This document shows, piece by piece, positions 1 to 18,693 of a stretch of DNA of 64,000 nucleotides. Position numbers and translations under genes: made by a program. The notes beneath the pieces were generated by a model that was not told where the DNA came from, made no database searches, and saw nothing but the letters and a program-made list of their open reading frames with translations. Position 1 is the stretch's first letter. Each line of letters opens with the position of its first letter. The DNA is taken from assembly GCF_017795745.1 (NCBI RefSeq), contig NZ_CP059067.1:3472001-3536000 (forward strand), written 5' to 3'. This DNA is from Rhizobacter sp. AJA081-3 (GTDB lineage: Bacteria > Pseudomonadota > Gammaproteobacteria > Burkholderiales > Burkholderiaceae_C).

Positions 1-1203
1 CTCCTTGAGCGGGAGATCGCCCGGAACACCCTTCAGCTCCAGCGACGACTCCAGCAGAGCGACCGCGTCGTCGTGCTCCAGGTCCCCCAGCTCGAGTTGT
101 TGCTCGGCTGGAACGAGTGCCAGTTGGTCGGCGTGGAACGCACGACCACTCAACACCACCCGCAGGTTCGGCAGGCCCTCCCTCGTGCGCAACTGTCGCA
201 GCCAGCTGCGCAGTCCCTCGAGGTCGAACTCGCTCGAGAGTCCGATCTCTTCCGCGGTGTCGAGGATTAGCACCAGCTTGCTGTCGATCGGCAGGTGATC
301 GCGCATCTCGAACTGCCAGGCCGAGGATGCCTGGTGCTCGCGACTCTGAACCGCCTCGAAGTTCGAGTAATCCAGGGATGCCGTGGCCGAAGCGCCCGAT
401 CTCGCCGCGCGGCGGTAGGCGGACAGCTCGGGCTGCATGGCCGGGAAGCACAGTTCGAGCTGACGAGAGAGCTCCATCATCAGCGTGGTGAGCGTGCCGC
501 GATAGAACGCCGGGCGGTCGAAGTCCAGTTGCAGGACCGGGATCCCGCTCCAGTCCTCACCGCGCAACCTGCGGGCGAACTCGCCCAGCAGCGCGGACTT
601 GCCGCTGCCGCCTACGCCCGTGATCCAGAAGATGTCCTCGGTCGAGACTCCTGACGTCGCCCGTACATACCACCACAACTTCTTCAGCTCAGTGATCCGG
701 CCCACCAGTCGGCGTGGCAGCAGCACCTGCACGGCCTGATCGACATCGTGACGCGACAGCACGAGGTCAACCCGTTGCGCTTCCCTGTCCACGGCCTGCG
801 TGCCCAGTGTGGGACCCAGGAACCGCAAGACGTTGCGCGCCAGGCCGAGACCGGTGGACGTGGTACGGACCGCGGTCTGTCCATTGCGCAGGACGTCCTG
901 GAGCTGCCGCCCAAGCTCGTCGCCCTCTGCCGGTCGGATCTCTTCGATCAGCTGCAGCAGTTCATCGCGCGCAACTTCCGCGAACACGCGGGACCGGACT
1001 GCGGGTTTCAGGATCCAGCGGATCCTCCCGTCCCTCACGACTTCGTCGCAGTCGGTCGCGAGCTTCCCCAGATAGGCGAGGTCGTCTTCCTTGGTGGGAT
1101 CAAGCAGCTGGGTCGGATCGAACTCGCCCAGGGTGGCCGCGATCCCACGCGCGCGCCACGCCGCATCGCGTTCTCGGCCTTGCCCGGGCGAGGTGTCCGT
1201 CAT
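1..1203 (-). CDS. STAND-type P-loop NTPase, third gene of the protease operon (3' end outside window)
   Basis: Open reading frame read on the minus strand from an ATG at 1203 to base 1 with no stop (401 codons), so the gene is cut by the window edge. Residues 1-180 are a mostly helical region I cannot assign. A canonical Walker A, GVGGSGKS, lies at residues 196-203, and a hydrophobic Walker B ending in Asp (LVLILDT, 310-316) follows at the spacing usual for STAND/NACHT-like ATPases. These act as nucleotide-driven signalling switches, usually with a C-terminal sensor region, here beyond the edge. The ATG overlaps the stop of the upstream gene (ATGA), so the two are translationally coupled. Inference: the regulatory or sensor ATPase of a three-gene protease conflict system. 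The motifs are seen directly; the role is inferred. Confidence 0.75.
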   Translation of the reverse strand, partial: MTDTSPGQGRERDAAWRARGIAATLGEFDPTQLLDPTKEDDLAYLGKLATDCDEVVRDGRIRWILKPAVRSRVFAEVARDELLQLIEEIRPAEGDELGRQLQDVLRNGQTAVRTTSTGLGLARNVLRFLGPTLGTQAVDREAQRVDLVLSRHDVDQAVQVLLPRRLVGRITELKKLWWYVRATSGVSTEDIFWITGVGGSGKSALLGEFARRLRGEDWSGIPVLQLDFDRPAFYRGTLTTLMMELSRQLELCFPAMQPELSAYRRAARSGASATASLDYSNFEAVQSREHQASSAWQFEMRDHLPIDSKLVLILDTAEEIGLSSEFDLEGLRSWLRQLRTREGLPNLRVVLSGRAFHADQLALVPAEQQLELGDLEHDDAVALLESSLELKGVPGDLPLKE

Positions 1204-3014: not shown

Positions 3015-5806
3015 CAAGGCTTCCAGTTGATCCCGGCCACGTTCAGGAACCCCTGAGCGCGCAGTTGCGCCAGGCTGTGCGCGTAGTTCTCGCTGCGCCA
3101 GGCGCCACCGAAGTGCAGGCCCACGGCACGCAGCGGAGCGTCGATGGTTGCAACCAGCGAGCCCGAACTGCCGCCCAGTGTCGTGGCGTCGTGGAACGAG
3201 GTGATGGGCACTTCGGCGGGCGAGACCTTCACCCTGCCGGGCGAGAAAAACTTGGTGCCGTAGTCGGCGCCGAAGAGGGCCTGCAGCCGGTCAAGGCCAT
3301 GGCGGTCCACGCTCCCGTCCGGCGCCCGCGGAAGCGTCGCCTGGCGCGCCGGGTAGCCCACGATCGCGACCGGCTTGTCGGGGTCCATCCATCCCACCGT
3401 GCGGGAGAGCTCCAGCGGCACCGGCAACGCGTTGTTCCCGGACAAGCTCCTGCCCTCCACCCGCAACAGCGCGAAGTCCGCTTTCTTCAGATCGATCGCC
3501 TCAAAGTTGATGTGCAGCGGGCCGGCCTGCACGACCTCGAGGATGCTGAACTTGCTTGCCGTGGTCTGCGCCGACGGCTCTTCCGCGAAGTCGATGCAGC
3601 ACTGGCCATCCTTGAGAACCCACTGCGCGGGCCGGTTCCGCTGCGGCGTCGGATACGCGATCAGCTGCAAGACGTGCCGGTTGGTGAGCACGAGACCATC
3701 ACCGACGACGTAGCCGGTGCCCAGGTGGACGCCGTCGAGGTCGATGCGGCCGACAGCGTCCATGCGCTCCTTGAAGCGCGAGTTCGACTTGAGCATATAG
3801 ATGGGCGCACCCCACTGCTCGGCGCGCGGATCCTCCTCGTCGACGTCCCCCTGGCGTACGCGCAGCGCGGGTCGGCCCTTGAGCAGGATGAGCGCCTCCA
3901 GACCCAGACGGCCCTGCGGCGACCGAACCACGCCCGTGCGCATCTCGTCAACGAAGCTGTGCACGGAGTCGAGAACGAAGTCGCGCTCGGCCGAAGGCGC
4001 GGAAGTGGTCTGCACGATCCTGCGAACGGTCTGCTCGAGCTCACTGCCGCCGTCACCCTGGAGGTACAGGCGCGCCGACTCGATCGCGTCGGCGCCGAGC
4101 GCCGTTTCAGGCATCGCACCGGAGGGCAGCGCGAGCTTCAGCCCGGTGATATCCATCTCCGGTGCGGGCAGCAGAGGTCTCGACACCGAAGCGGAGGATG
4201 CCTGGCCAAAGCGGCGCAGCCTTCGGTCATGCGAGCCTTTCACCGCATCACGCAGACGACGTGAAGGCTGTGTTCCTTCGGTCTTGGCCTCGACCGTGAG
4301 CCCGGACAGTTGCTGATCGAACTTCGCCTGCGACACGGCGATCGCCGAGATCTCTGCTTGGAAGCGATCCATCGGGAACGTGGCGTCGTGCGCCCCGGGC
4401 CCGAACTGCTCAAGCAACAGCTCCGAATCACCCTCGTCGGATTCGGCGGCCTCGACGGCACCCTGCGGAATCTCACCAAGCGCCAGATTCACCAGCTTCT
4501 CGGCGTCAAGGATGCCGGCGCCAAAGTCGAAGTCCCAGTCGCCCGGCGTGCGTGCAGTGGCCGTCACCGCGATCTTGAACAGCCGCGCGACCGTGATGCC
4601 GCGACGTCGCGCTTCCTCGATGACCTCGTCGCGTCCGTGCCGGGACAGCCACACGGCCGCCGCGCCGGCGATCATCGCGGTGGCATAGGAGGTGCCCTGG
4701 CTGGCCGACACCTTGTCCAGCGGATCGCCGTCGGAGGCCCTGTCCGCCCGCCAGACGAACTCGGCCGGGGCTGAGAGAGCAACGCGGGAACCGCGCGAGC
4801 TGCCCTTCCAGGGGAGATCGGTCGGCCCGGTGCCGCCGGCCGCGATGACCTCCGCGTAGCGGGCCGGCCAGACGACAAGCCCCACGCAGTTGCCGGCGGC
4901 CGCAACGACGATGACGTCGCGGTCGACGGCGTCCTGTATCGCCGCGTGCATGGCACGCCCGGCGATTCCGCCCAGGCTCATGGAGATCACGTGGCAGCCC
5001 TGCTCGACCGCGTGCGCGATCGCCGCGGCCACCGGGGCGGTATTGAAGACCTTGACGTCGTCGATGCAGCGGATCGGCACGATCCGCGCCGCAGGCGCGG
5101 CACCCTGGATCCGACCCGCCGACCGGCTGGCCAGGACGCTGGCAGTCGACGTTCCGTGGCCCGGATTGGCCGTGCCGGGCGTCAGCGGATCGGTCGGATC
5201 GGCGTCGCCGTCCATGATGTCCGCGGCACGCTCGAGGTCGAACATGTCACCCGCCAGCTCGGCATGGGACGTAATGCCCGTGTCCGGGTGGCCCACCAGC
5301 ACGCCCTCACCCTGCCCGACCCTCCAGGCGAGATCGAGCTTCGTCAGTTTGACGGCCCAGAGCGCATCCCCCGGCGCCTGCCCATCAGCCCAGCATAGCG
5401 AGCTGAGGACGGTGGACTCCGCCACCGGTCCTGGCTGGGATGGCGTCGGGTCGCGGAAGACCTGGATGCCCAGGTCCGGCTCGGCGCTGACCAGGCCGAG
5501 CTGGTCCCCCAGTTCATAGCCGATGTCGAACAGGTCCTGCTGCGGAAACACGCGCTCCAGCGTCGGAAAGCGCAGCACGTGGAAGCGGCCGGCGCTGGCC
5601 TGACCCACCTCGAGCGGCTGGAGCAGGAACCGGTCGCTGGCAAGCAGGCGTTCGATTCGGTCGCGGAGGCCCGCCAGGTCGCCGGCGGCAGCGAGTTCGA
5701 GGGTGAACCTCAACTCGTCCGGCGGCAGACCCGGACGGGCCAGGGCCGCGGTGACGACAGGCACCGAAGAAAGGACGCGGCGCAACTGCTCAATGGCGTT
5801 AGCCAT
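3014..5806 (-). CDS. Double serine protease: subtilisin (S8) domain plus trypsin-like domain
   Basis: 930 residues from the ATG at 5806, chosen because GGGGAAGA lies just upstream; a longer frame to 5923 has no such site. Residues about 160-440 are a subtilisin domain with the full triad and oxyanion Asn: HPDTGI (Asp175), GHGTSTAS (His217), AAAGN (Asn306) and GTSYATAMIAG (Ser373). A linker of about 230 residues follows, partly helical and acidic. Residues about 690-920 are a trypsin-like domain: GTGYVVGDGLVLTNRH (His711), ADFALLRV (Asp777) and GGSSGS (Ser881). No secretion signal is seen, unlike most subtilases, so it probably acts inside the cell. First gene of an operon whose next two genes start inside or at the preceding stop codon. 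Both proteases look intact. Inference: effector protease with an internal activating or substrate-cleaving partner domain. Confidence 0.85.
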   Translation of the reverse strand: MANAIEQLRRVLSSVPVVTAALARPGLPPDELRFTLELAAAGDLAGLRDRIERLLASDRFLLQPLEVGQASAGRFHVLRFPTLERVFPQQDLFDIGYELGDQLGLVSAEPDLGIQVFRDPTPSQPGPVAESTVLSSLCWADGQAPGDALWAVKLTKLDLAWRVGQGEGVLVGHPDTGITSHAELAGDMFDLERAADIMDGDADPTDPLTPGTANPGHGTSTASVLASRSAGRIQGAAPAARIVPIRCIDDVKVFNTAPVAAAIAHAVEQGCHVISMSLGGIAGRAMHAAIQDAVDRDVIVVAAAGNCVGLVVWPARYAEVIAAGGTGPTDLPWKGSSRGSRVALSAPAEFVWRADRASDGDPLDKVSASQGTSYATAMIAGAAAVWLSRHGRDEVIEEARRRGITVARLFKIAVTATARTPGDWDFDFGAGILDAEKLVNLALGEIPQGAVEAAESDEGDSELLLEQFGPGAHDATFPMDRFQAEISAIAVSQAKFDQQLSGLTVEAKTEGTQPSRRLRDAVKGSHDRRLRRFGQASSASVSRPLLPAPEMDITGLKLALPSGAMPETALGADAIESARLYLQGDGGSELEQTVRRIVQTTSAPSAERDFVLDSVHSFVDEMRTGVVRSPQGRLGLEALILLKGRPALRVRQGDVDEEDPRAEQWGAPIYMLKSNSRFKERMDAVGRIDLDGVHLGTGYVVGDGLVLTNRHVLQLIAYPTPQRNRPAQWVLKDGQCCIDFAEEPSAQTTASKFSILEVVQAGPLHINFEAIDLKKADFALLRVEGRSLSGNNALPVPLELSRTVGWMDPDKPVAIVGYPARQATLPRAPDGSVDRHGLDRLQALFGADYGTKFFSPGRVKVSPAEVPITSFHDATTLGGSSGSLVATIDAPLRAVGLHFGGAWRSENYAHSLAQLRAQGFLNVAGINWKP

Positions 5807-6509
5807 GTTCTTCCCCGATCGGCCAAAGGCGCAATCTTGCCAGCACTTCGCAGTGCCGCAGTCCGTAAATATGCCGAGGCGCGCCGGCCGGTTTCGGCCA
5901 GCAGTCGATCTGTGGCGCCGCAAGCCGTCAGCACTTCGCGAATCAGGCTGGAGCGGCGGAGCGGCCGTGGCCGTGCGAGCCCTGCCGCCAGCTGCATTTC
6001 CGCGGCCTTAGGATCTCATCGTCGGACAGCCGTTGGCTGGCTCGGATTCCGCCGACCACATGGGCCTGCCACGTCAACCGCTGCACGGAGGATTGGTGGG
6101 TCGCGTGGCCAGGATCTCGTTGGCGCTCAGAGTGAAGCGCAGCCCCGGCACGCCCCATAGAAGGTGCGCGTACGCGTCGTATTTCGCTGCTGGTACTTCA
6201 ACCGTTCCACAAAGCCGACCTTCGCCAAGGTCCCCTCATGGCCGGCTCCGGGTTCTCGAGTGCGCACCGGACAGCTGTCGGCCGCGGTTGGGCGGCGCCG
6301 CGACGGATCGACGCTTCAGGTCGCCCCCTAAGTTGAAGGGCTGCTGACCGCAGCTACCGATTCGGCAGCAGCCGGCCATTTGCGGAAGTTGGTGACCGTC
6401 AGCAATATGGCCGGCCGTTGCACGGTGGGAAACAGGGGTTCCGACCAAGGCTGTCTGCGCACTGCTACAGATTCCCAGCCTCGTGTCCCACATTGCACGA
6501 GCAGCGCGA
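5807..6509. other. Non-coding stretch upstream of the protease operon
   Basis: About 700 bases without a credible gene; open frames here lack family features and start sites. On the operon side there is a short perfect hairpin (GCACT-TCGC-AGTGC, 5843-5856), 37 bases before the protease ATG, and the 11-mer CAGCACTTCGC occurs twice (5841-5851 and 5929-5939). An AT-rich patch reading GCATATTTAC on the minus strand (about 5866-5875) could hold a -10 element. Towards the sensor kinase an inverted repeat with 9-base arms is found (6371-6379 and 6407-6415, GCCGGCCAT/ATGGCCGGC). The rest looks like decayed intergenic repeat DNA. Confidence 0.4.
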
Positions 6510-7553
6510 TCACTTGGCGCGCGGCAGATCCAGCATCGCACGCAAACCGCCGCCGACCCTGTTCGCCAGGGCGAGGGTCCCGCCGTGGTACGCCGCCGCG
6601 TCCCGCACGATCGCCAAACCGAGCCCCACACCCCCGGTGTCCAGACTGCGCGACGCGTCCAGGCGAACGAAGGGCTCGGTGACTCGGGCCAGGTCGGCTT
6701 CCGGAATCCCAGGCCCGTCATCTTCGATCACCACGCGCAGCGCCGCCGCGGAGTCTTCGATCTGCACGGTCACGTTCTTGCCATGTGCCACCGCGTTGTC
6801 GATCAGGTTGGTCACTGCACGCTTCAGGACCGACAGCTTGCCGGCATAGGGCGCTGGCGTCGCGTGTCTGGGTGGAGTTTCTTCCAGGCGCACCTGGCGC
6901 CCGAGTGCCTGCTCGTCCTCGACGATGCTCGACAGCAGCGCCTCCATGTTGATCGGCTGGATCGGCTCGGCATCCTCCAGACCGCGCAGGTAGGCCAGCA
7001 CGCTGTTGACCATGCCCTGCATGGCGTCGATGTCGGCATTCAGCTTGTCCTGCAGGTTTGGATCGTCGACCAGCTCCGCGCGCAGCCGCATGCGGGTGAG
7101 CGGCGTACGCAGGTCGTGTGATACGGCGGCCAGCGCGCGCCCGCGCTCCACCACCAGTTGGCGCAGGCGATGCTGCATGAAGTTGAAGGCCTCGGCCGCG
7201 CGTCGCACTTCGGTCGGGCCGCTCACGGGCAGCGGGGCAGCATCCAGGTCGTGCGCAAACGCCTTCGCGGCCGTCGCCATCTGCTGCAGCGGCTTGGTCG
7301 CCCAGCGTACCGCCACCAGCGACACGATGATGACCACCGCGAGCGTGATAGAGACGTGCCAGATGAAGCGCAGCGGCAGCGCTTCGAGCGCGGGCATGCC
7401 CGGGTGCACATGACCGTCGGCCAGCATCGCGGCGCGCTCCTGCAGGTGCAGCAGCAGGCTGGCGAACTGCGCGGCCAACAGGCCGAGCACCAGGATCAGC
7501 GTCATGCGGCCGGACAGCGAGCGCGGCAGCAGTTTGGCGAGCATCAATCGCAT
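6510..7553 (-). CDS. Two-component sensor histidine kinase (HAMP-HisKA-HATPase)
   Basis: 347 residues. An N-terminal membrane helix (about 16-37), a very short periplasmic loop (about 38-60) and a second helix (about 63-85) are followed by a HAMP linker, the phospho-acceptor helix with His146 in AAVSHDLRTPL, and an ATPase domain with N-box (NLIDNAVAHG), G1 (DDGPGIP) and G2 (GVGLGLAIV). It resembles EnvZ/RstB-type kinases paired with OmpR-type regulators. Its start overlaps the regulator's stop by 10 bases, so the two are co-translated. The tiny periplasmic loop argues against a large ligand-binding sensor. Signal unknown; the divergent neighbour at 8447 is a possible target. Confidence 0.92.
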   Translation of the reverse strand: MRLMLAKLLPRSLSGRMTLILVLGLLAAQFASLLLHLQERAAMLADGHVHPGMPALEALPLRFIWHVSITLAVVIIVSLVAVRWATKPLQQMATAAKAFAHDLDAAPLPVSGPTEVRRAAEAFNFMQHRLRQLVVERGRALAAVSHDLRTPLTRMRLRAELVDDPNLQDKLNADIDAMQGMVNSVLAYLRGLEDAEPIQPINMEALLSSIVEDEQALGRQVRLEETPPRHATPAPYAGKLSVLKRAVTNLIDNAVAHGKNVTVQIEDSAAALRVVIEDDGPGIPEADLARVTEPFVRLDASRSLDTGGVGLGLAIVRDAAAYHGGTLALANRVGGGLRAMLDLPRAK

Positions 7554-8275
7554 GAGGGCAGACCCTCCACGGCGGCAGCCAGTACGTAGCCTTCTCCGCG
7601 CACCGTCTTGATTAGTCCGGACTCGCGCCCGGTGTCCTGCAATCGCTGGCGAAGTCGACTGATCTGCACGTCGATCGCGCGGTCATAGGGCTCAGCCTCG
7701 CGGCCATGGATGAGTTCGACCAACTGGTCGCGGTTGAGCACCCGGTTGGGGTGATCCAGCAAGATGCGCAGCAGACGGTACTCGGCACCCGACAACGGGG
7801 TGGCCACGCCATCGGCGCCCGTCAGCACGCGAGTCGCCGTGTCAAGCTTCCAGCCGGCGAAGGCCAGGCAACGCTGGGTGTCCGGCTTCAGGTTGGGCGG
7901 AAGCGAACGCGTGCGGCGCAGGATGCCCTTGATGCGCGCCAGCAGCTCACGTGGGCTGAAGGGCTTGACCAGGTAGTCGTCCGCGCCCATCTCGATGCCG
8001 AGGATGCGGTCGGTCTCCTCGCCGCGCGCGGTGAGCATCAACACCGGCACGTTGGACTTGGCCCGCAGGTCGCGGCACAGCACCAGGCCGTCGGTGTCAG
8101 GCAGCATCAGGTCGAGCACCACCAGGTCGATGGCGTGCTTGTCGAGCACCTGCCACATCTCCCGGCCACTGCCAGCCGGCTTGGCATCGAAGCCGTTGCG
8201 CGCCAGGTAGTCCACAAGCAACTGGCGAATCTCGGGGTCGTCATCGACGATCAGGATGCTGTCTTTGGGGTCCAT
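7544..8275 (-). CDS. OmpR/PhoB-family response regulator
   Basis: 243 residues starting at MDPKDSILIVDDD; the frame stays open further upstream but without family similarity, so the start is set at 8275 by the receiver domain. The receiver domain (about 1-120) has the acidic pair DD, the phospho-acceptor Asp in VVLDLMLPDTDG, and the conserved Thr and Lys (MLTARG, VKPF). The C-terminal winged-helix DNA-binding domain (about 140-235) ends with the usual TVRGEGYVL. It sits directly upstream of and overlaps its kinase (6510-7553) and is divergent from the DUF4395 gene, so it may control the intervening promoter region with its inverted repeats. Confidence 0.93.
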   Translation of the reverse strand: MDPKDSILIVDDDPEIRQLLVDYLARNGFDAKPAGSGREMWQVLDKHAIDLVVLDLMLPDTDGLVLCRDLRAKSNVPVLMLTARGEETDRILGIEMGADDYLVKPFSPRELLARIKGILRRTRSLPPNLKPDTQRCLAFAGWKLDTATRVLTGADGVATPLSGAEYRLLRILLDHPNRVLNRDQLVELIHGREAEPYDRAIDVQISRLRQRLQDTGRESGLIKTVRGEGYVLAAAVEGLPSCD

Positions 8276-8321
8276 GACGATAGCGTCGCCGAGCGGTGTG
8301 CTCGGCCACGGCGAGTTTTGT

Positions 8322-8364
8322 ATCGCAGTGTTGCATGCGATCAAAACGCAAGCTGGCGATGCAA
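8322..8364. promoter_or_regulatory. Nested inverted repeats in the divergent promoter region
   Basis: The 171-base gap between the response regulator (start 8275) and the DUF4395 gene (start 8447) holds two overlapping inverted repeats: ATCGCA (8322-8327) with TGCGAT (8336-8341), and TTGCATGCG (8331-8339) with CGATGCAA (8357-8364). Such dyads between a regulator and a divergent operon are typical operator positions; binding by the adjacent OmpR-type regulator is a guess. Confidence 0.35.
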
Positions 8365-8446
8365 TTCCCTCGACCGCCGCCATTTGGCCGGCACCTTGCA
8401 GCGGTTTCAATGCTGGCAGGTCCACACACCCCGGGGTGATCCCAGC

Positions 8447-9202
8447 ATGTCTGCCATCTTTTCGTTCGGAGAGCGCCTCGACGGCTACTCCGTGCCGGTG
8501 CTCAACGAGCGCGCTGTGCGCGCTGCCGCCGGCATCGTCTTCTTCTTCGCCATCGTGTCGTTCATGAACGCCTGGCTGATCGGCAACTTCCAGCCAACCC
8601 GGGTCTTCGTGGTGGCCTTCCTGATCGACTTCACGCTGCGCATCTTCGTCAACCCGAAGTTCGCGCCCAGCCTGATCCTGGGGCAGTGGATGGTGCGCAA
8701 GCAGCAGCCCGAATACGTCGGCGCACCGCAGAAGCGATTCGCGTGGGCGATCGGCTTCGTGCTGGCGGTGGTGATGTTGTACCTGGTCGTGATCAAGCAT
8801 GTCATCGGGCCGATCAACCTGATCGTCTGCGCGGCCTGCCTGGTGCTGCTGTTCTTCGAGACGGCCTTCGGCATCTGCATCGGCTGCAAGGTCTACAACT
8901 GGTTCAACAAGGACCAGGCGCAGCTTTGTCCGGGCGGTGTGTGCGAGTTCGAGCCGGCACGCGGTGCTGGCGGCAGCTGGGCGCATGCGGCCGTGGTGCT
9001 GGCCTTCATCGGCGTCGTCGGGGCCTGGACCAGCCACGTGGCGGCCAACGATCCCTACGCCCGCGCGGTTGCCCCTACCGCCGTGCCGGCCGCGGCCTCG
9101 CCTGCCGTGGATGCGGCCGAAACCGAGCGCTGCAAGGTGCCCGACTTCGCCAAGGCCATGGGCCATGAAGAAAAGTGGAAGCTCCACAACAACTGCAAGT
9201 GA
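8447..9202 (+). CDS. DUF4395 family integral membrane protein
   Basis: 251 residues from the ATG at 8447, preceded by GGGGTGAT; the frame is open far upstream but that part is antisense to the response regulator. At least four hydrophobic helices are visible (about 25-47, 95-115, 120-140 and 180-200), with a cysteine-containing cytoplasmic motif GICIGCKVYNW. DUF4395 proteins are small membrane proteins often found with thioredoxin-like or sulfur-handling proteins; their function is unknown. The downstream genes (thioredoxin-like secreted protein, metallo-beta-lactamase-fold protein, ABC ATPase) are on the same strand with short gaps and probably form one transcription unit. The C-terminus contains extra Cys/Asp residues (ERCKVPDF) that could bind metal. 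Confidence 0.75.
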   Translation: MSAIFSFGERLDGYSVPVLNERAVRAAAGIVFFFAIVSFMNAWLIGNFQPTRVFVVAFLIDFTLRIFVNPKFAPSLILGQWMVRKQQPEYVGAPQKRFAWAIGFVLAVVMLYLVVIKHVIGPINLIVCAACLVLLFFETAFGICIGCKVYNWFNKDQAQLCPGGVCEFEPARGAGGSWAHAAVVLAFIGVVGAWTSHVAANDPYARAVAPTAVPAAASPAVDAAETERCKVPDFAKAMGHEEKWKLHNNCK

Positions 9203-9213
9203 GATCGCCCGCC

Positions 9214-9639
9214 ATGAACCACCCACTTCACACCCGTCGACGCTGGATCGCCGCCCTGGCGGCGGCCGGGGCCTCGCTCACGATGCTTTCTGTGGCCCGT
9301 GCAGCCCAGCCCGTCGTCGAGATCATCGCCTTCGCCCACCCGCCGGTGCAGTCCGCGCTCAAGCCGCTGCGCGAGCGGCTGGCCGCGCAGAGCACCCGAT
9401 TGAAGGTGGTCGAGATCGACATGGAGACGCCGGCTGGCGAGAAACGACTTCAGGCCGTAGGCGTGACGGGCCATGTGCCCGTGGTCGTGCTCATCGATGG
9501 CCACCACTTGCACAAGCGCGCCGACGGCAGCAGCGTCGATCTAGTGAGCTTCCCCGCTGGACCGGGCACGCCGCAGGGTGTCAAGGGCACCTGGTCTGCC
9601 GCGGATGTCGAAGCCATCCTGAAGACGCGCCTGAAGTGA
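9214..9639 (+). CDS. Secreted thioredoxin-like-fold protein of unknown function
   Basis: 141 residues. The ATG at 9214 begins a clear signal peptide (RRRW then a hydrophobic stretch ending about ARA-AQ), so the start 13 codons upstream is rejected. The mature part has beta-alpha pattern segments (VVEIIAFAHPPV, LKVVEIDMETPAGEKRL, VPVVVLIDGHHL) like a thioredoxin-fold protein, but there is no CxxC, so redox activity is not expected. It follows the DUF4395 gene by 11 bases and precedes the metallo-beta-lactamase-fold gene by 19. Role inferred only from neighbours: periplasmic partner in a sulfur or thiol-related module. Confidence 0.6.
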   Translation: MNHPLHTRRRWIAALAAAGASLTMLSVARAAQPVVEIIAFAHPPVQSALKPLRERLAAQSTRLKVVEIDMETPAGEKRLQAVGVTGHVPVVVLIDGHHLHKRADGSSVDLVSFPAGPGTPQGVKGTWSAADVEAILKTRLK

Positions 9640-9658
9640 ACTACCCGTGCGTGCCTTC

Positions 9659-10621
9659 ATGAACCGCATCTGGGCCGTTGGTCCGGCGAACTGGCTCCGT
9701 CTCACCGGCCTGCTCGCAACATGCTGCATCTGGCTTGCGCTGCCCACGACGGCCCACGCACAGGAAGTGCGCTTCGAGCGCGTAGCCGAAGGCGTCTACG
9801 CGCACATCGGCGACCTCGGCGGCCGCACAACGGCGAACCAAGGGCTGAACGCCAACATCGGGCTCGTGGTTACGCCTGGCGGTGCGGTCCTGATCGACAG
9901 CGGCGCCACGGCCCGCGGCGCCCAGCGTATCCACGAGGCGGTGCGCAAGCTCACGTCGCAACCGCTGAAGTGGGTCATCAATACCGGTGGCCAGGACCAC
10001 CGCTGGCTCGGCAATGGCTACTTCAAGGCCCAGGGCGCGCAGTTGATCGCCCACGCGAAGGGCGAGCCCGACCTGCGCAACCGCGGCAACGACCATGTGG
10101 ACGCGCTGCGCGCGGCGTTGGGCGAAGGGATGGACGGCACCTTACCGACACTGCCGGACCGCTGGATCACGGGCACCGATGAAAGGCTGGACCTGGGTGG
10201 CGTGACCTTCGAGTTCAGGCATCGCGGCGGCGCGCACACCCCGGGCGACATGCTCGTGTGGCTGCCGCAATCGCGCGTGCTGTTCAGCGGTGACGTGGTC
10301 TATGTCGACCGCTTGCTGGGAGTGATCCCGGTGAGTCAGACCAAACCATGGCTTGCCACCTTTGCCGAGATCGAGCGTCTCGCACCAGCACGCATCGTGC
10401 CGGGCCACGGCCGCGTGACCGATCTGGCGACCGCGCAGGCCGACACCCGCGACTACCTGATGGCGCTCCGGACGCACATGAAGAAAGCAGTTGACGACGG
10501 CCAGGACATCAGTGCGGCGGCCAAGGCCTTCAACGCAAGGCCGTGGATGCGCCTGATGAACGCGGCCGATCTGATGCCGGGCAACGCCAGTCGCACCTAC
10601 CTCGAACTGGAACGGGAGTAG
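9659..10621 (+). CDS. Secreted metallo-beta-lactamase-fold protein with degenerate metal motif
   Basis: 320 residues from the ATG at 9659; a GTG four codons earlier is also possible and neither has a strong Shine-Dalgarno. A signal peptide ends about AHAQ. The fold is that of SoxH/quinoprotein-relay MBL hydrolases: GLVVTPGGAVLIDSG, GGAHTPGDMLVWL, VLFSGDVVYVDR and VPGHGRV are the later metal and fold motifs. The first metal motif, normally HxHxDH, reads GGQDH, so two His ligands are missing while Asp and His stay. One metal site may therefore be lost or re-formed. The protein is probably periplasmic and co-transcribed with the two genes upstream. Confidence 0.8.
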   Translation: MNRIWAVGPANWLRLTGLLATCCIWLALPTTAHAQEVRFERVAEGVYAHIGDLGGRTTANQGLNANIGLVVTPGGAVLIDSGATARGAQRIHEAVRKLTSQPLKWVINTGGQDHRWLGNGYFKAQGAQLIAHAKGEPDLRNRGNDHVDALRAALGEGMDGTLPTLPDRWITGTDERLDLGGVTFEFRHRGGAHTPGDMLVWLPQSRVLFSGDVVYVDRLLGVIPVSQTKPWLATFAEIERLAPARIVPGHGRVTDLATAQADTRDYLMALRTHMKKAVDDGQDISAAAKAFNARPWMRLMNAADLMPGNASRTYLELERE

Positions 10622-10665
10622 TGCGTGGTCATGCTGTCCGGAGCGAAGTTCCCTAGGAGAACCCC

Positions 10666-10989
10666 ATGAGTCTTGTCATCGCAGAAGGCCTGACCAAGAC
10701 CTACCGCGCAAGCGAAGTCGAGGTGCACGCCATCAAGGGCGCAGACTTTGTCATCGAGCCAGCGTCGTTCGTCGCCTTCGTCGGTCCCTCGGGCAGCGGC
10801 AAGAGCAGCCTGCTGAACATGATCGGCTGCCTCGACCACCCGACCTCCGGCAAGCTGACCGTGCTGGGCACCGACATCTCGACGCTCGACCGCCGCGCCG
10901 CGGCCGACTTCCGCGGCAAGAACATCGGCTTCATCTTCCAGGACTTCAACCTGGTGCCGGTGCTCACCGCCTACGAGAACATCGAGTAG
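10666..10989 (+). pseudogene. Truncated ABC-transporter ATPase (LolD/MacB type)
   Basis: 107 residues with a good start (ATG after TAGGAGAACCCC). Walker A GPSGSGKSS and the Q-loop FIFQDFNL are present and typical of LolD/MacB-like ATPases that work with FtsX-type permeases. The frame stops right after ENIE, where family members continue with about 110 more residues carrying the LSGGQ signature, Walker B and H-loop. The next 50 bases show no continuation and run into the convergent transporter gene. No permease gene is present. Seen: truncation. Inferred: a deletion or insertion boundary near 10987 removed the rest of the operon; the product cannot hydrolyse ATP normally. Confidence 0.8.
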
Positions 10990-11042
10990 CATCGCCCGCG
11001 CTTGCCACACGGCGAAACACGGCCCCGCGGACGGCCGGCTGA

Positions 11043-12215
11043 TCAGACCCGGTTGGTCTTGCGCAGCAGCAGGACTTGCAGCAGCAGCCCCACGCCGAAG
11101 CCGATGCCGACGTTCCACATCGACAGTCCGGCAGTCACCAGCAGCACGGTCGACTCATGGCCTTGGCGGCCCTGGTCGAACTGGCCGCCGGCCAGTTGAA
11201 CGCCGGTCATGAATAGGATCGTGCCCAACACGGCTTGCGGCATGACCTCGAACAAGGCGACGACCGAGGCGCTGAAGCCAACGGCGAGCACCAGCAGCAG
11301 TCCTCCCAGGATCACCAACGAGCCGCCGGTCCGTGCGCCGAATGCCACGTGGCCGGCCATGCCACCGGCGCCGTGGCACATCGGCACGCCGCCGACCGCC
11401 GAACCGAACACGTTCATCACTCCTGTCGAGACGGCGACCTGGCGGTCGGTCACCGGACGGTCCGGAAAGAGTCGGTTGTTCTCCTCGCGCACGCCGATGA
11501 TCGCGTTGCCCAGCGTGAGTGGCACCTGCGGCAGCGCCAGGAACAACGTGCCCAACACGATGTCGTTCCAGCCGATGCTGGGCCAGGCCCAGGTCGGCCA
11601 CCGAAGCTCCGGACGGACCTCCTGAAGCTTGCGCAGCAACTCGGGTTGCTGCACGGCGGTCCAGGCGACTCCCAGCAGCAGCAGCACGAAGATGCCGGGA
11701 ACGCGACGGCTCTTCGCCAGCAGCACGACCACCAGCAGACCCACACCCGCCAGCAGCCACTCGTTGGCCATGAGACGGGCGCCTTGCCACATGAAGGCCA
11801 TGCCCAGACCGAGCACCACGCCCTGGGCGACCGGTCGGCTGATCCAGCGGGTGATGCGCTCGGCCAGACCCGTGGTGCCGAGGACCAGCCAGATCAGGCC
11901 CGTGACGAGTCCGGCTGCGTAGACCGCTCCCGAGGTGATGACTGCAGACTGGGCCGCCTGCGTGGTGGCCACCGCGCCCGCTGCCTTCATCGGCTGCACC
12001 GGGAAGGGTGTCTTGTAGACCCATCCACAGACCACCATCGACACGCCGAATCCGAACAGCACGCCAAATGCGTCGAGCTTCATGACGCTCAAGTAGGCGA
12101 TCACGAAGGGCACGAGCGTGCCGAGATCGCCGAAGGCCCCGGCCCATTCGAGGCGGTCGTAGCGGTTGACGGGGACCGGCTTGGGTGGGCTGGACGGTGG
12201 TGACTGAAGCGACAA
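11043..12215 (-). CDS. MOT1-type sulfate/molybdate transporter
   Basis: 390 residues, about ten membrane helices. The N-terminal GAFGDLGTLVPFV and the later segments with PLTLGNAIIG, NVFGSAVGGVPMCHGAGGMAGH and ARTGGS are hallmarks of the MOT1 (molybdate transporter, SulP-related) family. It probably carries molybdate or sulfate across the inner membrane. The start is a TTG at 12215 with no convincing Shine-Dalgarno and no good alternative before the first helix, so the exact start is uncertain. It is convergent with the truncated ABC ATPase (53-base gap). Whether it belongs to the mobile cargo or to older chromosome is not clear. Confidence 0.88.
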   Translation of the reverse strand: MSLQSPPSSPPKPVPVNRYDRLEWAGAFGDLGTLVPFVIAYLSVMKLDAFGVLFGFGVSMVVCGWVYKTPFPVQPMKAAGAVATTQAAQSAVITSGAVYAAGLVTGLIWLVLGTTGLAERITRWISRPVAQGVVLGLGMAFMWQGARLMANEWLLAGVGLLVVVLLAKSRRVPGIFVLLLLGVAWTAVQQPELLRKLQEVRPELRWPTWAWPSIGWNDIVLGTLFLALPQVPLTLGNAIIGVREENNRLFPDRPVTDRQVAVSTGVMNVFGSAVGGVPMCHGAGGMAGHVAFGARTGGSLVILGGLLLVLAVGFSASVVALFEVMPQAVLGTILFMTGVQLAGGQFDQGRQGHESTVLLVTAGLSMWNVGIGFGVGLLLQVLLLRKTNRV

Positions 12216-12592
12216 AGTTGCGGGGCTCGAAGACGAGGTTTCAGTCTAGCCTGAGAGACCAGGGTGCCTGTATGAGGTCTCGAAGACCGGCACTGATGGC
12301 ATACGGGCGCGAGGCCGCGAACACGACTGTCCTATGGCTGGTTTCGGGTGCCCCGCCAGCCATCTGCTACTTCGGCAATGGGTCGGGACCACCACTTGAC
12401 GGCGAGGGGAAGCTGTCACTCGCCAGCGCAGCGTCGGTACGCGCGCCGTCGTCGAACCGATGATTGGCGTGTGGCGGCTTCCAGGGTGCACCGGTCATTC
12501 ACCCAGAGGAGGCGCGAATGGCAGGAATCGGCCGCCGCCGTCACTCGACCTTAGAAGTTGACCGGCTGCAGTCAGTCTAGTTTGGTCATCCG
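12216..12592. other. Non-coding gap between transporter and giant recombinase gene
   Basis: About 380 bases in which I see no gene. Short open frames occur on both strands but without start signals or family features. The DNA has the look of decayed intergenic sequence. No terminator with a T-run was recognised at the 3' end of the giant gene. Confidence 0.4.
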
Positions 12593-15500
12593 CTACTGCG
12601 ACGCCGCGGCGAGTAGGCCTGCGCTGTGCGCGCAAGCCAATCCCAGGATCGCGCGATGCAGATCCCGCTCTACGGGCAATTGCCTTGACGCAGCGACGAC
12701 CACGCCAAACTCGGTACGTGCACCAATCTTCGCAGCCCGGCTAAGCCGCCGTGGCGATTCCTCTAGGCTAGGCAGAATCTTTCTCGCATCCTCCAGCGTG
12801 TCGGCACTGGCAGCGAAATAGTTCAGCCGGAGCTCTGTCGCGTCGTAGCCCACCGTTTTGAGCCATTTGATATGTCGACCCAACTGTTGAATGTTTCGAC
12901 TCACCAAGTACGGCCGATGTGCTTCGCCGTCAACTTCAGTCTGCCAATCGCTGAGGATCTCGAACGTCGCCTTCGCAAACGCCATGTCCGATGCCATTGC
13001 CTCAAGAACGGTAGCCACCAATCGATCCCTGCGATCCGCCCCGCCCTGAACGTCCATACCCGCGAACGGCTCGACCCGCAGCGCATCCGGCTCAAAGTCC
13101 TGCATGCTGGTTCTACTCCCGACATCTTCGTAGGCTGCAAAGAACGCCTTGGCCTCCTCCGGTGGAACCGAGAGCGTTTCAGCGGCCACCTCGTGCAGCA
13201 CGTTCAGTTCTTCCCCGCGCGCACGTCGCTGCATCAGCAGCGCATCGAGGACGGAAGCAACCGGGCGTACACCGGCTTCTTGGCTGGCTGCATCAACCTG
13301 CGATTCAACTTGCACGGGAGCAACCGTCAGTTCCCTGACGTCAAGGGCACCAATGAACTTCGCCACCGCTGCCGCCGTGCGCGTACCGTCCGTTGCACGC
13401 TTGCCATCCTGCCGCTTGGGGAAATGATGACGCACAGCGGAGGCCGAAACACCGAGCAGAAGGCCCATCGTGTCGGAACGCCATGCGTGCTGCAGGGCCA
13501 CCTGTGCGCAGATGTCACCAGCCACCCACCATGCACCGTGCCAATAGGTCCGCGACAGGGTGCCGACCCCGGATTGGCCCATCCACAGTCCAAGCCGATC
13601 GATCTGGCTGGGCCAACGCTCCGGAGAAGGCGACAAGGATCTCAGACGAGTTTGCGCGTGGGATGGCAGCAGCAGCGATTGACAGAGCTGCACAGCGATC
13701 GGCGAAGCTTGCGGGTCCGGCATCAGCATGTGGCTCATCATTGAGGTGGCGTAGGTGTGGCGCATGCTGTAGTTGATCGCGAAGTGATCGCCGGACGCCC
13801 GCTTGACCGCCCAGTTTCCCAGCGCGTACAGCGGCGCATCGTCGTAGAGCAGATCCGCCCCTGCAGCAAACAAGGCGTATTTCGCTTGCCCACCAAGCTT
13901 GTCTGCGGCTCGGTAGCGCGTATTGATCAGTTCGTTAGCTGCCTCGCTCGCCAGACTGACCGGGATCGTGCGCGGAAGCGTCTTGAGCGATCGGATCACA
14001 TTGATTCGCACGCGAAGGCTTGTGCGCTCGTCGTCCTGGAAATCGGTCACCTTGACGCCGTAGCCTTCGGCCGGCCGCAGGCCATACGCCTGATTCAACG
14101 CCAACAGCGCTGCGCCCGTTTCCCCGACCTCTGTGGCTTTTCCATCCGGCGTCCTCGCGAGATTGAAGGCTCGCTCGACGATGTGAGTGGGCAGCACCAC
14201 GTTGCGAGCGTTTCGGAGCCGGGACTCGGTATGCGCGTCGAACCTGGAGTTCTGCATGCCGTGCCATTCGTGCAGATACCGGAGAAACAGTCGCAGCGGC
14301 GCCTTTGCAGCCTGCTGCTCCGCTTCCGCCACTCGGGCAATCACCGCTCGGAAGAACGCTGCCAGCGCCTCTTCGTCGCACTGCAGGAGGTCGACGTTCC
14401 AGGCCACTTCAAGAATATGGGCGACGATTCGCTGCCGGTAGGTCTGCAGGGAGCCAAAGCTGTAGGTGTCGACGCGGAATCCGCCGATGGCCAGCATGTA
14501 ATAGATGAACTCGACCGCCAGCGCGACGATCTGCTGACGTTGCATCCACGCCTCGAGCTCGGGCCGGTGGCGGCCGCTGAACATGCGGTGCAGCCTCATG
14601 CGCTGCTGGCGCGACGCCGCCTGGAACTTGGTGACCTCCCCTTCTGCTTCGTCCACGAGCCGACGGATTGCAGCCACCGCCGCCTTGATGTCCGCGTCTC
14701 GGTGCTTCCGCGGCCCGCGGGGCGAAGGGGGCGCTGCGCGGAGCACTCGAGGTTCTGCGCCCAAGAGGAGCGCCGTGCTTTCCGGGGACGGCGCGTTGCA
14801 TTCGTTCGCACCCGTGATGCTGGCGTAGACCGAACCCGGCACACGCAAGAACCAGTAGGGTCGCATCACCACGAGAAGCTTGCGCAGATTCATCGATCCT
14901 CGCAGCGCCGTCATCTGCGCCAAGAACCTGCGCGCCTCGGCCTCCACCTTCTCGAACGCCACGGGCCCCGTCTCCTGGCGAACACCAAGGTATCCAGCCA
15001 CTGCAGCGGCAGTCTTGTACGTGAGGTCGACCGTCCTGTCGTACTCCGCGGCCATCGTCTCGATGGACGCTCGCAGCTGCAACTGCCCCGCGAATCGAGC
15101 CGGCCCCTCGGTCTGCAGGACCATGATCAACCGCTCCAGCTCCTGCCGGTCCAGAACGGCCTCACAGCACACCAGCAGAACGGCGATCAAGCCAAGCACG
15201 CGCTGTGCCGTCCGCTCTTCACGAAGGTAGTTCTTGATTTGGTCCTCGAGGCCGTCCGCCACGCAGTTCGCCAGCGCGAGATGGCGGCCAAAGTTCAGTT
15301 CGACGGGACCTTCGCTGATTCGTGCAAGGTTGAGCGATGCCGCCGTGACCCTGTATTTGCCGGACCGGCGCCATCCCGTCGCCAGTTCCGCGAACGCCGT
15401 CCTGACTCTCGCCTTCGCTCGAGGGTCGTCGCGGAGTTCGTCCTCGATCCCGTCCATCAGCTTGCGCACGGTCTCGTCGTCGAGCAAGAGAACCCGCCGG

Positions 15501-18418
15501 CCGCGCAGCTGGGATTTCTTGAGCACGCGAGTGGCGACACGTCGAATGGCGTCGAGCTCTGCATTGAACTGCCCGTCGACGCTGAAGTGCACGTTTGTTG
15601 GTCCTGCCGGCTTGAGCAGCTCGGACCGGGGCGCAGCGTATCCCGCTTCGGTTCGCCACTCTTGCTTCAGTACTTCGAGCTGCGTGATGACCGCTTCGAC
15701 TACAGCGGGCTCGCCTCCATAGCGGTCCCGTATCCCGTTTTCAATCCGCTTCAGGTCGGCGTCGTTGAGGTCGACGCAGGTGCCGTCCAGCAACATCGAT
15801 TCCGGCACCACCTCGAGCACTGTCCGACGCGCCCGTCGGTTCGCCTCGTCGGTTTCCAGCTTGCGCGCCTCGTAGGCTTGATTGCTGGACACGAGCGAAG
15901 GAAGCGGCGCGTTCAGCCGACCCAGGTAGTCCTTGGCCCAAGGGGCAGCAATGGCCTTGCCGCCCATTTCGACCAGGTACCGCTCGAGCGGCTCCTGCAG
16001 ACGCTTGAGCTCGACTGCCGGAATCCAGACCGAGGCTGCGCCAAAGGGATGCTGCTCTCGCACATGCCCGAGCAGGAGTTCTATGTGGGCGCCGCTTACT
16101 CCGTCATCAGCGAGCCAGGTCGCGACGTTCCGCCGCAGTGCCCGGATGTCGAACGGAGCCGGTCCGTCGAACTGCAAGGCCTTCCACGCTCTGCGAATGG
16201 CCCACTGCACGAGGCGGGTCGACAGCGGCACGACCCGCCGGGTTCCGATCCGGAAGAGCAGCCCGACCTGCTGAACTGCATCGGCACCCTTCTGGGGTTG
16301 GAGAAACCCGAGCGCTGTGCGCAGGCGGTCGGCGTGTGCTGGATTGGAGCGGGCCAGCGCGGCGATCAGCCATGCGATATGTGCGCGGCACCACCGCAGT
16401 TGCTCGACCACTGGCTTGACGAGCGGCACGAAGCGAGCCTCGCTGCCGACGTTGATCTTGTCGGCAACGAAAGCGATCGCGTCATCGAGACTCACGTCGT
16501 GCAGGAACGGCAGCAAGGCACGCGCGTTACGGTGACCGATGGCGGTGACGACGAGTGCGCCCGCATACAGCATGAAATCGTTGCTGTGCCGGTAGGCCGG
16601 CTTTCCCTTCCTGTCGATCGCGCGTTCGGCAAGCCAGTCCAGGACAGCAGCCATGCGTGTGGCGTCGACCCAGGTGTCACCTTCGATGGCTTCCCGCGGC
16701 TTTGCGCTTGCCTGGGGGTGTGGGACCTCCGGGTAGCGGATGGCATGTACTGCCATCCGATAGGCATGCCGGACCGCTGCGCAGCGCGGGTGCACGTAGT
16801 GGGACAGCGACTCCCGCCGAACCTCCAATTCCTCATCGTCCTCCTGCAATGTCTGGTCGTCCGCAGAGCCTGCAGCGTCGTTCTCGTCGGAAATTTCGCT
16901 GTCGTCGTCCTGGTCAACGCCCTCCCCGACGTTCAGCTCATCCGGCTCGGACTCGTCATCGGCCGTTTTTCCTGTCGGCCGTGTGCTGCACAGATGCGTC
17001 ACGATTGCCCGGTTGGCCGTCGAGAGAAAGATCTGCCGGGCAAGGATGTGCTTGACGCAGAGATCGACCTGATGACTCGAACGCCCCAGGCGCTCGCCGA
17101 GGTGCTCGAGCACTTGCAGCCAGATTTCGTCAATGGGAAGTGGCAGCAACTCGTCGATGACAAAGTCGCGCTGGAACGGGTGCAGGTGCAGGTCCAAGTC
17201 TTCGACCTCCAGCCACAGGGCTACACCTGCGGCCTGCTTCGGCGCCCATAGCACTGTGTCGCCACGCCGGGGGTCGCGACGCTCGATGACGAACTGCCGT
17301 CCGCCTGGACGGGCTGCCGACGGCTCGGACGATATGCCGTCTGATCGCACCGAGACCGGTAGCAGTGCAGCCTCGGTCATCGTGCTGGCGGTCAATGCTC
17401 CCACCTGAGCTAGCAGTCCGCCCGCTGCGGCCAGCATGTCGGCCTTGAGCACTATCCGATCAGCCGCTGGAGCAGGACTTGCGCTGAAGCTGGCGGCCAA
17501 GGCGGAGGCTTCGAGAGCATTCAGGCCGTAGGTCCACTCCGCGAGCAGTTCCCGGTCCCGCAACTGCTGACTGCCGCGATTACCCCATCGCCTAGTCGTC
17601 GGCGCGGGTGTCTTCTCCTCTGGCACGGGCGGCAATGGCCCCACCCCTTCGATGAGGCGCGGCGAGTATGGCCGGCGCGCGTCGGTTTTGCGGAGCAGGT
17701 CAACAAACGCCACATATTCTTGGGGTGCATCGGGCAACCCGAGTGACTCGAAGTCCTTCGCCGCACCTTGCCCCGCAGTGAGACGATCGATCAACGATTG
17801 GCAGACGATTTCCGGCGAAAGCTGATCGAGAGAGGCTGCGTGCGCCACTTCACCGAGTTCGGCGAACTGCGCCCCCGCTCCCATCGGTCGGCCAAAGGCC
17901 CCCAAGACCCTGTAGCACGCCGGCCGCTTCTCCGCGTGGCCACTCCACACGCGGATGAGCAGGTGACTTGCCGCCATCATGAGCTGCTCGGCGGGGTCAG
18001 GTGCAGCAGCAGAAGGCCAGTGCAGCAGCCCGGAGTGCGCGGATGGGAGCGCGAACGCGGCGTGAAGGGCCTGGGTCAGCAGCGGATCTACCGACTTCGG
18101 GCCTCGCGCTAGAACATCGTGTCGGACATCGCGAAGCGCCTCCGACAGATCTGCTGCCTGCAGCGCCAAGCTGCAGGCTGGTACCAACGGCGCGTGGAGA
18201 TCAGCAAGACGAGCGAACGCCGGACTCAGCCGATCAAGGTACTCGAGGTGGCCGGCTAGGCCGTACGCTGAGCCGCGACACCCGAACCAGCGCAGCAAGC
18301 GGTGCAATTGGGCCGCCGCCGCGGGGTGTGGCGCCATCGTCCGGCACAAGACGACTAGCTCAGTGTCCGCGGCTGCAGGCGCTGGTGAGGTAGTAGCGTC
18401 GAAGCTTGTGAACTGCAC
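12593..18418 (-). CDS. Giant protein with two tyrosine-recombinase-like modules
   Basis: About 1941 residues, five times the size of a normal tyrosine recombinase; start at GTG 18418 is provisional (no clear Shine-Dalgarno). Module 1 (about 610-800): Arg I in GHRNARALLPF (Arg630), Lys654, Arg II in IRALRRNVATWL (Arg762), and LLLGH (His785), but no Tyr at the expected place (Trp798 nearest), so probably inactive. Module 2 (about 1430-1630): Arg I in YGLRPAEGYGV (Arg1447), Lys1479, Arg II in SMRHTYAT (Arg1553), MGQSG (Gln1615 instead of His) and Tyr1625 in SRTYWH, the likely nucleophile. An acidic linker (about 485-530) and long helical regions of unknown fold surround them. The 5' end faces a tRNA-Thr fragment 190 bases away, as expected for an integrase. 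G+C is lower and more variable than in the rest of the window (48-65% on sampled lines). Confidence 0.8.
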   Translation of the reverse strand: MQFTSFDATTSPAPAAADTELVVLCRTMAPHPAAAAQLHRLLRWFGCRGSAYGLAGHLEYLDRLSPAFARLADLHAPLVPACSLALQAADLSEALRDVRHDVLARGPKSVDPLLTQALHAAFALPSAHSGLLHWPSAAAPDPAEQLMMAASHLLIRVWSGHAEKRPACYRVLGAFGRPMGAGAQFAELGEVAHAASLDQLSPEIVCQSLIDRLTAGQGAAKDFESLGLPDAPQEYVAFVDLLRKTDARRPYSPRLIEGVGPLPPVPEEKTPAPTTRRWGNRGSQQLRDRELLAEWTYGLNALEASALAASFSASPAPAADRIVLKADMLAAAGGLLAQVGALTASTMTEAALLPVSVRSDGISSEPSAARPGGRQFVIERRDPRRGDTVLWAPKQAAGVALWLEVEDLDLHLHPFQRDFVIDELLPLPIDEIWLQVLEHLGERLGRSSHQVDLCVKHILARQIFLSTANRAIVTHLCSTRPTGKTADDESEPDELNVGEGVDQDDDSEISDENDAAGSADDQTLQEDDEELEVRRESLSHYVHPRCAAVRHAYRMAVHAIRYPEVPHPQASAKPREAIEGDTWVDATRMAAVLDWLAERAIDRKGKPAYRHSNDFMLYAGALVVTAIGHRNARALLPFLHDVSLDDAIAFVADKINVGSEARFVPLVKPVVEQLRWCRAHIAWLIAALARSNPAHADRLRTALGFLQPQKGADAVQQVGLLFRIGTRRVVPLSTRLVQWAIRRAWKALQFDGPAPFDIRALRRNVATWLADDGVSGAHIELLLGHVREQHPFGAASVWIPAVELKRLQEPLERYLVEMGGKAIAAPWAKDYLGRLNAPLPSLVSSNQAYEARKLETDEANRRARRTVLEVVPESMLLDGTCVDLNDADLKRIENGIRDRYGGEPAVVEAVITQLEVLKQEWRTEAGYAAPRSELLKPAGPTNVHFSVDGQFNAELDAIRRVATRVLKKSQLRGRRVLLLDDETVRKLMDGIEDELRDDPRAKARVRTAFAELATGWRRSGKYRVTAASLNLARISEGPVELNFGRHLALANCVADGLEDQIKNYLREERTAQRVLGLIAVLLVCCEAVLDRQELERLIMVLQTEGPARFAGQLQLRASIETMAAEYDRTVDLTYKTAAAVAGYLGVRQETGPVAFEKVEAEARRFLAQMTALRGSMNLRKLLVVMRPYWFLRVPGSVYASITGANECNAPSPESTALLLGAEPRVLRAAPPSPRGPRKHRDADIKAAVAAIRRLVDEAEGEVTKFQAASRQQRMRLHRMFSGRHRPELEAWMQRQQIVALAVEFIYYMLAIGGFRVDTYSFGSLQTYRQRIVAHILEVAWNVDLLQCDEEALAAFFRAVIARVAEAEQQAAKAPLRLFLRYLHEWHGMQNSRFDAHTESRLRNARNVVLPTHIVERAFNLARTPDGKATEVGETGAALLALNQAYGLRPAEGYGVKVTDFQDDERTSLRVRINVIRSLKTLPRTIPVSLASEAANELINTRYRAADKLGGQAKYALFAAGADLLYDDAPLYALGNWAVKRASGDHFAINYSMRHTYATSMMSHMLMPDPQASPIAVQLCQSLLLPSHAQTRLRSLSPSPERWPSQIDRLGLWMGQSGVGTLSRTYWHGAWWVAGDICAQVALQHAWRSDTMGLLLGVSASAVRHHFPKRQDGKRATDGTRTAAAVAKFIGALDVRELTVAPVQVESQVDAASQEAGVRPVASVLDALLMQRRARGEELNVLHEVAAETLSVPPEEAKAFFAAYEDVGSRTSMQDFEPDALRVEPFAGMDVQGGADRRDRLVATVLEAMASDMAFAKATFEILSDWQTEVDGEAHRPYLVSRNIQQLGRHIKWLKTVGYDATELRLNYFAASADTLEDARKILPSLEESPRRLSRAAKIGARTEFGVVVAASRQLPVERDLHRAILGLACAHSAGLLAAASQ

Positions 18419-18442
18419 CGGTAGGCTGGGGTTGTGCGATGG

Positions 18443-18467
18443 TCATCATTGTGCTTCAATGTGATGA
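18443..18467. promoter_or_regulatory. Imperfect palindrome upstream of the giant recombinase gene
   Basis: TCATCATTG (18443-18451) and CAATGTGATGA (18457-18467) form an imperfect dyad 25 to 49 bases upstream of the GTG start at 18418. The surrounding 18500-18605 is markedly AT-rich. This is a plausible operator or promoter element for the recombinase gene; nothing identifies the binding protein. Confidence 0.35.
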
Positions 18468-18605
18468 ACGAAGCCCAGCTTGCAAGCCTGATCGCGGCGA
18501 ACAGCGATACCACCCGAAGCGGACTCACAAACAAAGTATAGTAAATCTTAATAAAATCAACTACTTACGTTCAAGTCACAATTTTTGACAAGTTAGATGT
18601 AACGT

Positions 18606-18651
18606 ATTCGTAATGCGAAGGTCGGGAGTTCGACTCTTCTCACCGGCACCA
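18606..18651 (+). other. 3' half of tRNA-Thr(CGU): attachment-site duplication (attR)
   Basis: The bases read as the anticodon loop TTCGTAA (18607-18613, anticodon CGT at 18609-18611), 3' anticodon stem, variable region, T-arm with TTCGACT loop, acceptor strand CACCGGC and an encoded ACCA end. The match to tRNA-Thr(CGU) is to the family consensus from memory. No D-arm or 5' acceptor strand precedes it; the DNA upstream is AT-rich and unrelated. It is therefore not a working tRNA gene but a target-site remnant, the expected product of integration at the anticodon loop. Confidence 0.8.
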
Positions 18652-18656
18652 ATCCA

Positions 18657-18693
18657 GACCAGGGCCCGCCTCGCGCGGGCCCTGGTCTTTTTT
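18657..18693 (+). terminator. Rho-independent terminator of the ancestral tRNA-Thr
   Basis: A 13-base-pair perfect stem (18657-18669 with 18675-18687), a five-base loop and a run of six T (18688-18693) follow the tRNA fragment by five bases. It marks chromosome-side DNA kept from the original tRNA-Thr locus. Confidence 0.92.

Follow-up and report, generated by a model that had tools for sequence, protein, structure and literature searches.

In the 64-kb window (the whole stretch of DNA analysed, 64,000 nucleotides), a single unbroken open reading frame that starts with GTG and has no internal stop codons encodes an exceptionally long protein, hereafter called the giant (Table 1). The position-specific GC content of the frame (0.71/0.47/0.74) is consistent with coding, with a third-position value (GC3) of 0.74 versus 0.85-0.95 in four adjacent genes. 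Upstream of the start codon lies a leader with a GC content of 0.44, versus 0.69 in the window; relatives show a similar geometry, with leaders of about 145-245 bp. The leader ends at a tRNA fragment that is identical at 46 of 46 positions to the 3' part of an intact tRNA-Thr(CGT) at G000:C1:3416096-3416171, and the two copies are direct repeats 74.5 kb apart. In the congener G002 the site is uninterrupted: the tRNA-Thr and its terminator are followed directly by the sequence that the window has from position 18653, so that the 74.5 kb in between represent an insertion. The features of a tRNA-integrated island are present, with an intact tRNA and a displaced fragment at its bounds and an uninterrupted site in a relative. 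A preliminary description of this DNA had placed the giant where an integrase is expected, beside a tRNA fragment, and its start codon indeed lies 187 bp from the 46-bp repeat.

Table 1. Features of the giant, its island and related loci. Positions refer to the window unless another locus is named.
Feature	Location	Strand	Basis or remark
Fused A+B tyrosine-recombinase protein (giant), 1941 aa	12593..18418	-	open reading frame; both A and B profile HMMs match
B core, residues 1289-1700: tyrosine-recombinase fold, R1448, K1479, Y1550, R1553, Q1615, Y1625	13319..14554	-	alignments, HMM, Foldseek
Codon of candidate nucleophile Tyr1625	13544..13546	-	column is Tyr in 25/25 B proteins
A core, residues 571-826: tyrosine-recombinase fold, R630, K654, R762, H785, no Tyr (Ala795-Ser796)	15941..16708	-	Pfam, HMM, alignment, AF2, Foldseek
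AT-rich leader, 187 bp, recombinase start codon to att fragment; element end	18419..18605		GC content, geometry of relatives
attR: 3' 46 bp of tRNA-Thr(CGT), cut at anticodon loop	18606..18651	+	repeat of intact tRNA
Native downstream flank of tRNA	18653..18684		contiguous with intact tRNA-Thr in congener G002
Right part of island	1..18651		whole island is G000:C1:3416172-3490651
tRNA-Gly(TCC) fragment	G689		intact copy 66.4 kb away
tRNA-His(GTG) fragment	G620		intact copy 32.9 kb away
tRNA-Val(GAC) fragment	G771		
tRNA-Arg(CCG)-like fragment	G212		probably Arg; identity from reading the sequence
Fused A+B, L099	same genome, ~2.67 Mb		1862 aa
Fused A+B, L025	G212:C4		1825 aa
Fused A+B, L100	G577		1763 aa
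Fused A+B, WP_159373139.1	Acinetobacter plasmids		1681 aa

Library searches see only part of the giant. Pfam PF00589 matches residues 725-787 (E 3.9e-6) and PHROG integrase 216 matches as well (E 2.7e-7), but the second module is without a match in Pfam or NCBIfam, NCBIfam names neither catalytic module, and no Arm domain was found anywhere in the 1941 residues. Alignments and the predicted folds of both halves nevertheless confirm that the giant contains two tyrosine-recombinase folds in a single chain, as the preliminary description had proposed. The profile HMMs of the two modules, A and B, match the one open reading frame in that order (E 1e-93 and 1e-150, respectively, the giant itself being part of both seeds). 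AF2 models of the halves were built on family alignments from which the plasmid row was left out. They reach a mean pLDDT of 55.8 for the A half (mostly 70-95 over 580-835) and 61.9 for the B half (mostly 65-90 over 550-795 of that model). Compared with the PDB by Foldseek, the A half resembles XerD, XerA, Tn1549 Int and 3nkh, and the B half XerA, XerH, the integron integrase and Cre, in both cases with a probability near 1, and of 1.00 for XerD, Tn1549 Int and 3nkh (A half) and for XerA, XerH and Cre (B half). Tyrosine recombinases are the sole confident fold matches for either model, so both withstand the structural refutation that the preliminary description had named; the N-terminal part of each half is without an assigned fold.

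The catalytic columns differ between the modules. All 22 A proteins share Arg I, Lys, Arg II and His III (R630, K654, R762 and H785 in the giant), the His II position is Asn in 19 of them, and the nucleophile position holds Tyr in six, Phe in six and other residues in ten, followed directly by a near-invariant Ser. The giant has Ala795 there, in line with the earlier claim that its first module lacks the Tyr. All 25 B proteins have Arg I, Lys, Arg II and the Tyr (R1448, K1479, R1553 and Y1625 in the giant), which bears out Tyr1625 as the candidate nucleophile. The two substitutions reported earlier in this module, Gln for the usual His and Tyr for the HxxR His, are equally visible in the alignment: His III is conserved in 24 of 25 B proteins and is Gln only in the giant (Q1615), and His II is conserved in 23 of 25 and is Tyr in the giant (Y1550) and in L100. 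The B half of the giant therefore has both arginines, the lysine and the nucleophilic tyrosine of a tyrosine recombinase and lacks His II and His/Trp III, which are usual in these enzymes though not strictly defining. In the tree, its branch is very long (4.15). From these alignments, A is a conserved recombinase fold in which the nucleophile is not conserved and the rest of the catalytic set is kept. With Arg, Lys, Arg and His kept throughout and Tyr present in only 6 of 22, A looks like a pseudo-recombinase partner, with B as the catalytic one.

As a single tblastn query the giant found no relatives (plasmids, phages, genome_contigs, viral_contigs and 100 related genomes searched), and these were recovered only through a class-wide genome search followed by profile building. 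The class-wide search yielded a genuine distant relative for each half: a protein of 1033 residues in G212, which aligns to residues 1370-1629 of the giant, and one in G350, which aligns to residues 600-827. Matches in L012 (a Lon protease) and L013 were due to chance and were dropped. In G212 a 158-residue gene C is followed by adjacent A (831 aa) and B (1033 aa) genes; a blastp comparison of the giant with this unfused A was not significant, so the two are joined through other family members and the HMM. Profile searches show the family spread over the Pseudomonadota. A and B are separate genes with abutting or overlapping frames in 18 other loci (A 742-908 aa, B 787-1206 aa), A directly precedes B wherever both were recovered, and the small gene C often, though not universally, precedes A. 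Gene C is absent before the giant, where the leader leaves no room for it, and none of the C proteins scores above the Pfam cut-off. A single in-frame stop codon interrupts the A gene in G350 (L015:304-3408), and the 300 bp of contig left beyond it are without a B gene.

Including the giant, five proteins are A+B fusions, those of the four other loci measuring 1681-1862 residues. Fusion maps to three changes on the tree, and one origin of all fusions is possible on that phylogeny. I had considered a rule by which A loses its Tyr only when fused, and dropped it, as Tyr is kept in none of five fused and six of 17 split proteins, too few to tell. Judged by these comparisons, the giant is a natural fusion of the A and B genes of a widespread two-gene cassette. 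Its design, which was not a familiar one in the preliminary description, is not a one-off, given 18 unfused pairs and five fused proteins. The more than 1200 residues around the modules, whose folds that description called unknown, are part of the A and B proteins. A second fused giant is encoded in the same genome in the region of G000:C1:2669235 (L099:8287-13875, minus strand). Both of its B histidines are intact, and no tRNA was found within the 20 kb fetched.

In four other loci the 5' end of the module borders on the 3' half of a tRNA that is truncated at the anticodon loop (Table 1); T-arm-like matches occurred in 107 of 3000 control stretches of 200 bp. The tRNA-sited loci make up roughly a fifth of those examined. 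Eight copies of the fused module on Acinetobacter plasmids instead share a sharp left end, which lies some 145-165 bp ahead of gene C; their flanks are unrelated, and their cargo varies and includes BREX and phenol degradation. A simple inverted copy of this left end was not found, and the plasmid lacks the other half of the ISAba14 that is interrupted there, so that the right end could not be placed. The fixed end, the unrelated flanks and the varied cargo indicate that the A/B module moves independently and is linked to tRNAs in some loci only. The expectation that homologues lie next to tRNAs thus holds for some loci and not for the family as a whole. On a further plasmid with an unfused C-A-B set, Qat genes lie downstream.

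As the giant lies flush with the att fragment at the tRNA end of the island, it is probably the enzyme that moves it. The best explanation, to which I assign a probability of roughly two in three, is that the giant is the island's site-specific recombinase, an A+B fusion with a catalytic B half and a nucleophile-less A partner. Two co-operonic genes of a recombination cassette would have fused, and I infer catalysis, a division of labour between the halves, and excision or integration by the giant as follows. The B half would be catalytic through its Arg-Lys-Arg set and the Tyr1625 nucleophile, while the A half, having kept the DNA-phosphate-binding Arg/Lys/Arg/His and lost the nucleophile, would probably bind one arm of the att core or an element end and assemble the synapse, with the fusion fixing A:B at 1:1. 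Recombination at the anticodon-loop region of tRNA-Thr would leave the intact tRNA at attL and the 3' half-tRNA at attR, beside the giant's own promoter region. It is unlikely, though conceivable, that the halves complete each other's active site, A with Arg-Lys-Arg-His and B with Arg-Lys-Arg-Tyr. In that case the giant could act as a single-chain heterodimeric tyrosine recombinase whose active sites are assembled in trans from both halves and whose cleavage inherently favours one strand or one att arm.

Alternatively, the giant could be a degenerate, inactive relic of an A/B cassette, which is compatible with the best explanation, as it may once have moved the island. The loss of both catalytic His residues of B, together with the very long branch, indicates that activity is possibly reduced or lost, and the missing gene C and the low GC3 point the same way. 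However, 1941 codons without a stop, the retention of Arg, Lys, Arg and Tyr in B and of Arg, Lys, Arg and His in A, and att repeats without a single mismatch make me consider complete decay somewhat unlikely. A second alternative, the main rival as to mechanism, is that the island's canonical Arm-DNA-bind_2 integrase inserted it and that the giant is a passenger module at the attR end by chance; I regard this as improbable. The island does contain a complete Arm/PF00589 integrase of 459 residues (G000:C1:3434977-3436356), and integrases of this type occur near the cassette in nine of 23 other loci (L016, L027, L028, L100, L105, L106, L107, L112 and L114). However, it is far from both att ends (18.8 kb to attL, 54 kb to attR), whereas 187 bp separate the giant from attR; three loci with the same tRNA geometry (L103, L111 and L113) have no Arm integrase in the 14-18 kb read, and in Acinetobacter the module, with a fixed end of its own, has no such integrase nearby. 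A chance resemblance, with the giant not a recombinase at all, might have been suspected from the silence of Pfam and NCBIfam on the second module, but is refuted by the profile alignment, the fold matches and the invariant catalytic columns.

Gamma-Mobile-Trio (GMT) elements carry a three-gene recombinase module, and the unfused C-A-B cassette resembles such a trio. None of the A, B or C proteins matched a GMT-named NCBIfam family, although NCBIfam may not include such models. Among named elements, GMT may come closest, and I rate the novelty of the A/B cassette with caution, GMT being set beside it by description only. Like the islands and plasmids described here, GMT elements are described, in a secondary mention, as mobile elements rich in anti-phage cargo (PMC12715929). 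The strand-biased circularizing integrative elements (SE; intA-tfp-intB-srap; PMC10214605), which are characterised by a strand-biased circle and the lack of an empty site, likewise have a multi-protein module of overlapping genes at one element end, with a small auxiliary protein and a partner, Tfp, that has the recombinase fold without the catalytic residues and is reported to lack the RHRY motif. The A proteins, in contrast, keep Arg-Lys-Arg-His, and A and B are two large proteins, often fused, at tRNA sites. The pSEA1 proteins (IntA 467, Tfp 776, IntB 731 and Srap 165 aa) match the A/B profiles only at the generic tyrosine-recombinase level, and by this comparison the cassette does not have the homologous tfp and intB genes of an SE. 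GInt (ginABCD; PMC5385486) also places a recombinase operon at one island end, followed by cargo, with direct repeats, and one of its recombinases, GinC, is aberrant; compared by description only, it differs in having three recombinase genes plus GinD. The displaced 3' fragment and the intact tRNA regenerated at the opposite end are as in canonical tRNA-targeting integrases (Islander, PMC4383910). Those of the Arm-DNA-bind_2 plus PF00589 type, however, have 300-460 residues and a single catalytic domain, versus two folds in the 1941 residues of the giant.

Tyrosine recombinases normally work as tetramers built from one small protein or from two. A partner without nucleophile that keeps all other catalytic residues and has repeatedly become part of the same chain as the active one could offer a direct route to the role of non-cleaving subunits in the synapse, and the fusions a way of asking whether stoichiometry can be hard-wired. 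The family is carried by defence-bearing islands and resistance plasmids. Current models overlook it, with Pfam detecting a single catalytic module out of two and NCBIfam naming neither.

The right part of the present island encodes a two-component system and a SulP-type transporter, both named by reading the translations, and beside the transporter gene lies a short ABC-transporter ATPase frame of 107 residues that looks truncated (window 10666-10989). A row of subtilase/trypsin-like and NACHT/AAA-type ATPase genes (window 1200-5923 and the adjoining G000:C1:3470204-3473203) looks like a protease-NLR defence system. Further into the island, C5 methylase, AIPR, Z1-domain and HATPase proteins form a defence-like cluster (G000:C1:3439026-3448288), to the left of which a UvrD-like helicase is found with IrrE and PD-(D/E)XK domains. 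A recombination cassette of another kind is also present in the island (G000:C1:3455786-3459137): a gene for a large serine recombinase precedes two for ParB-like proteins, which were recognised by reading.
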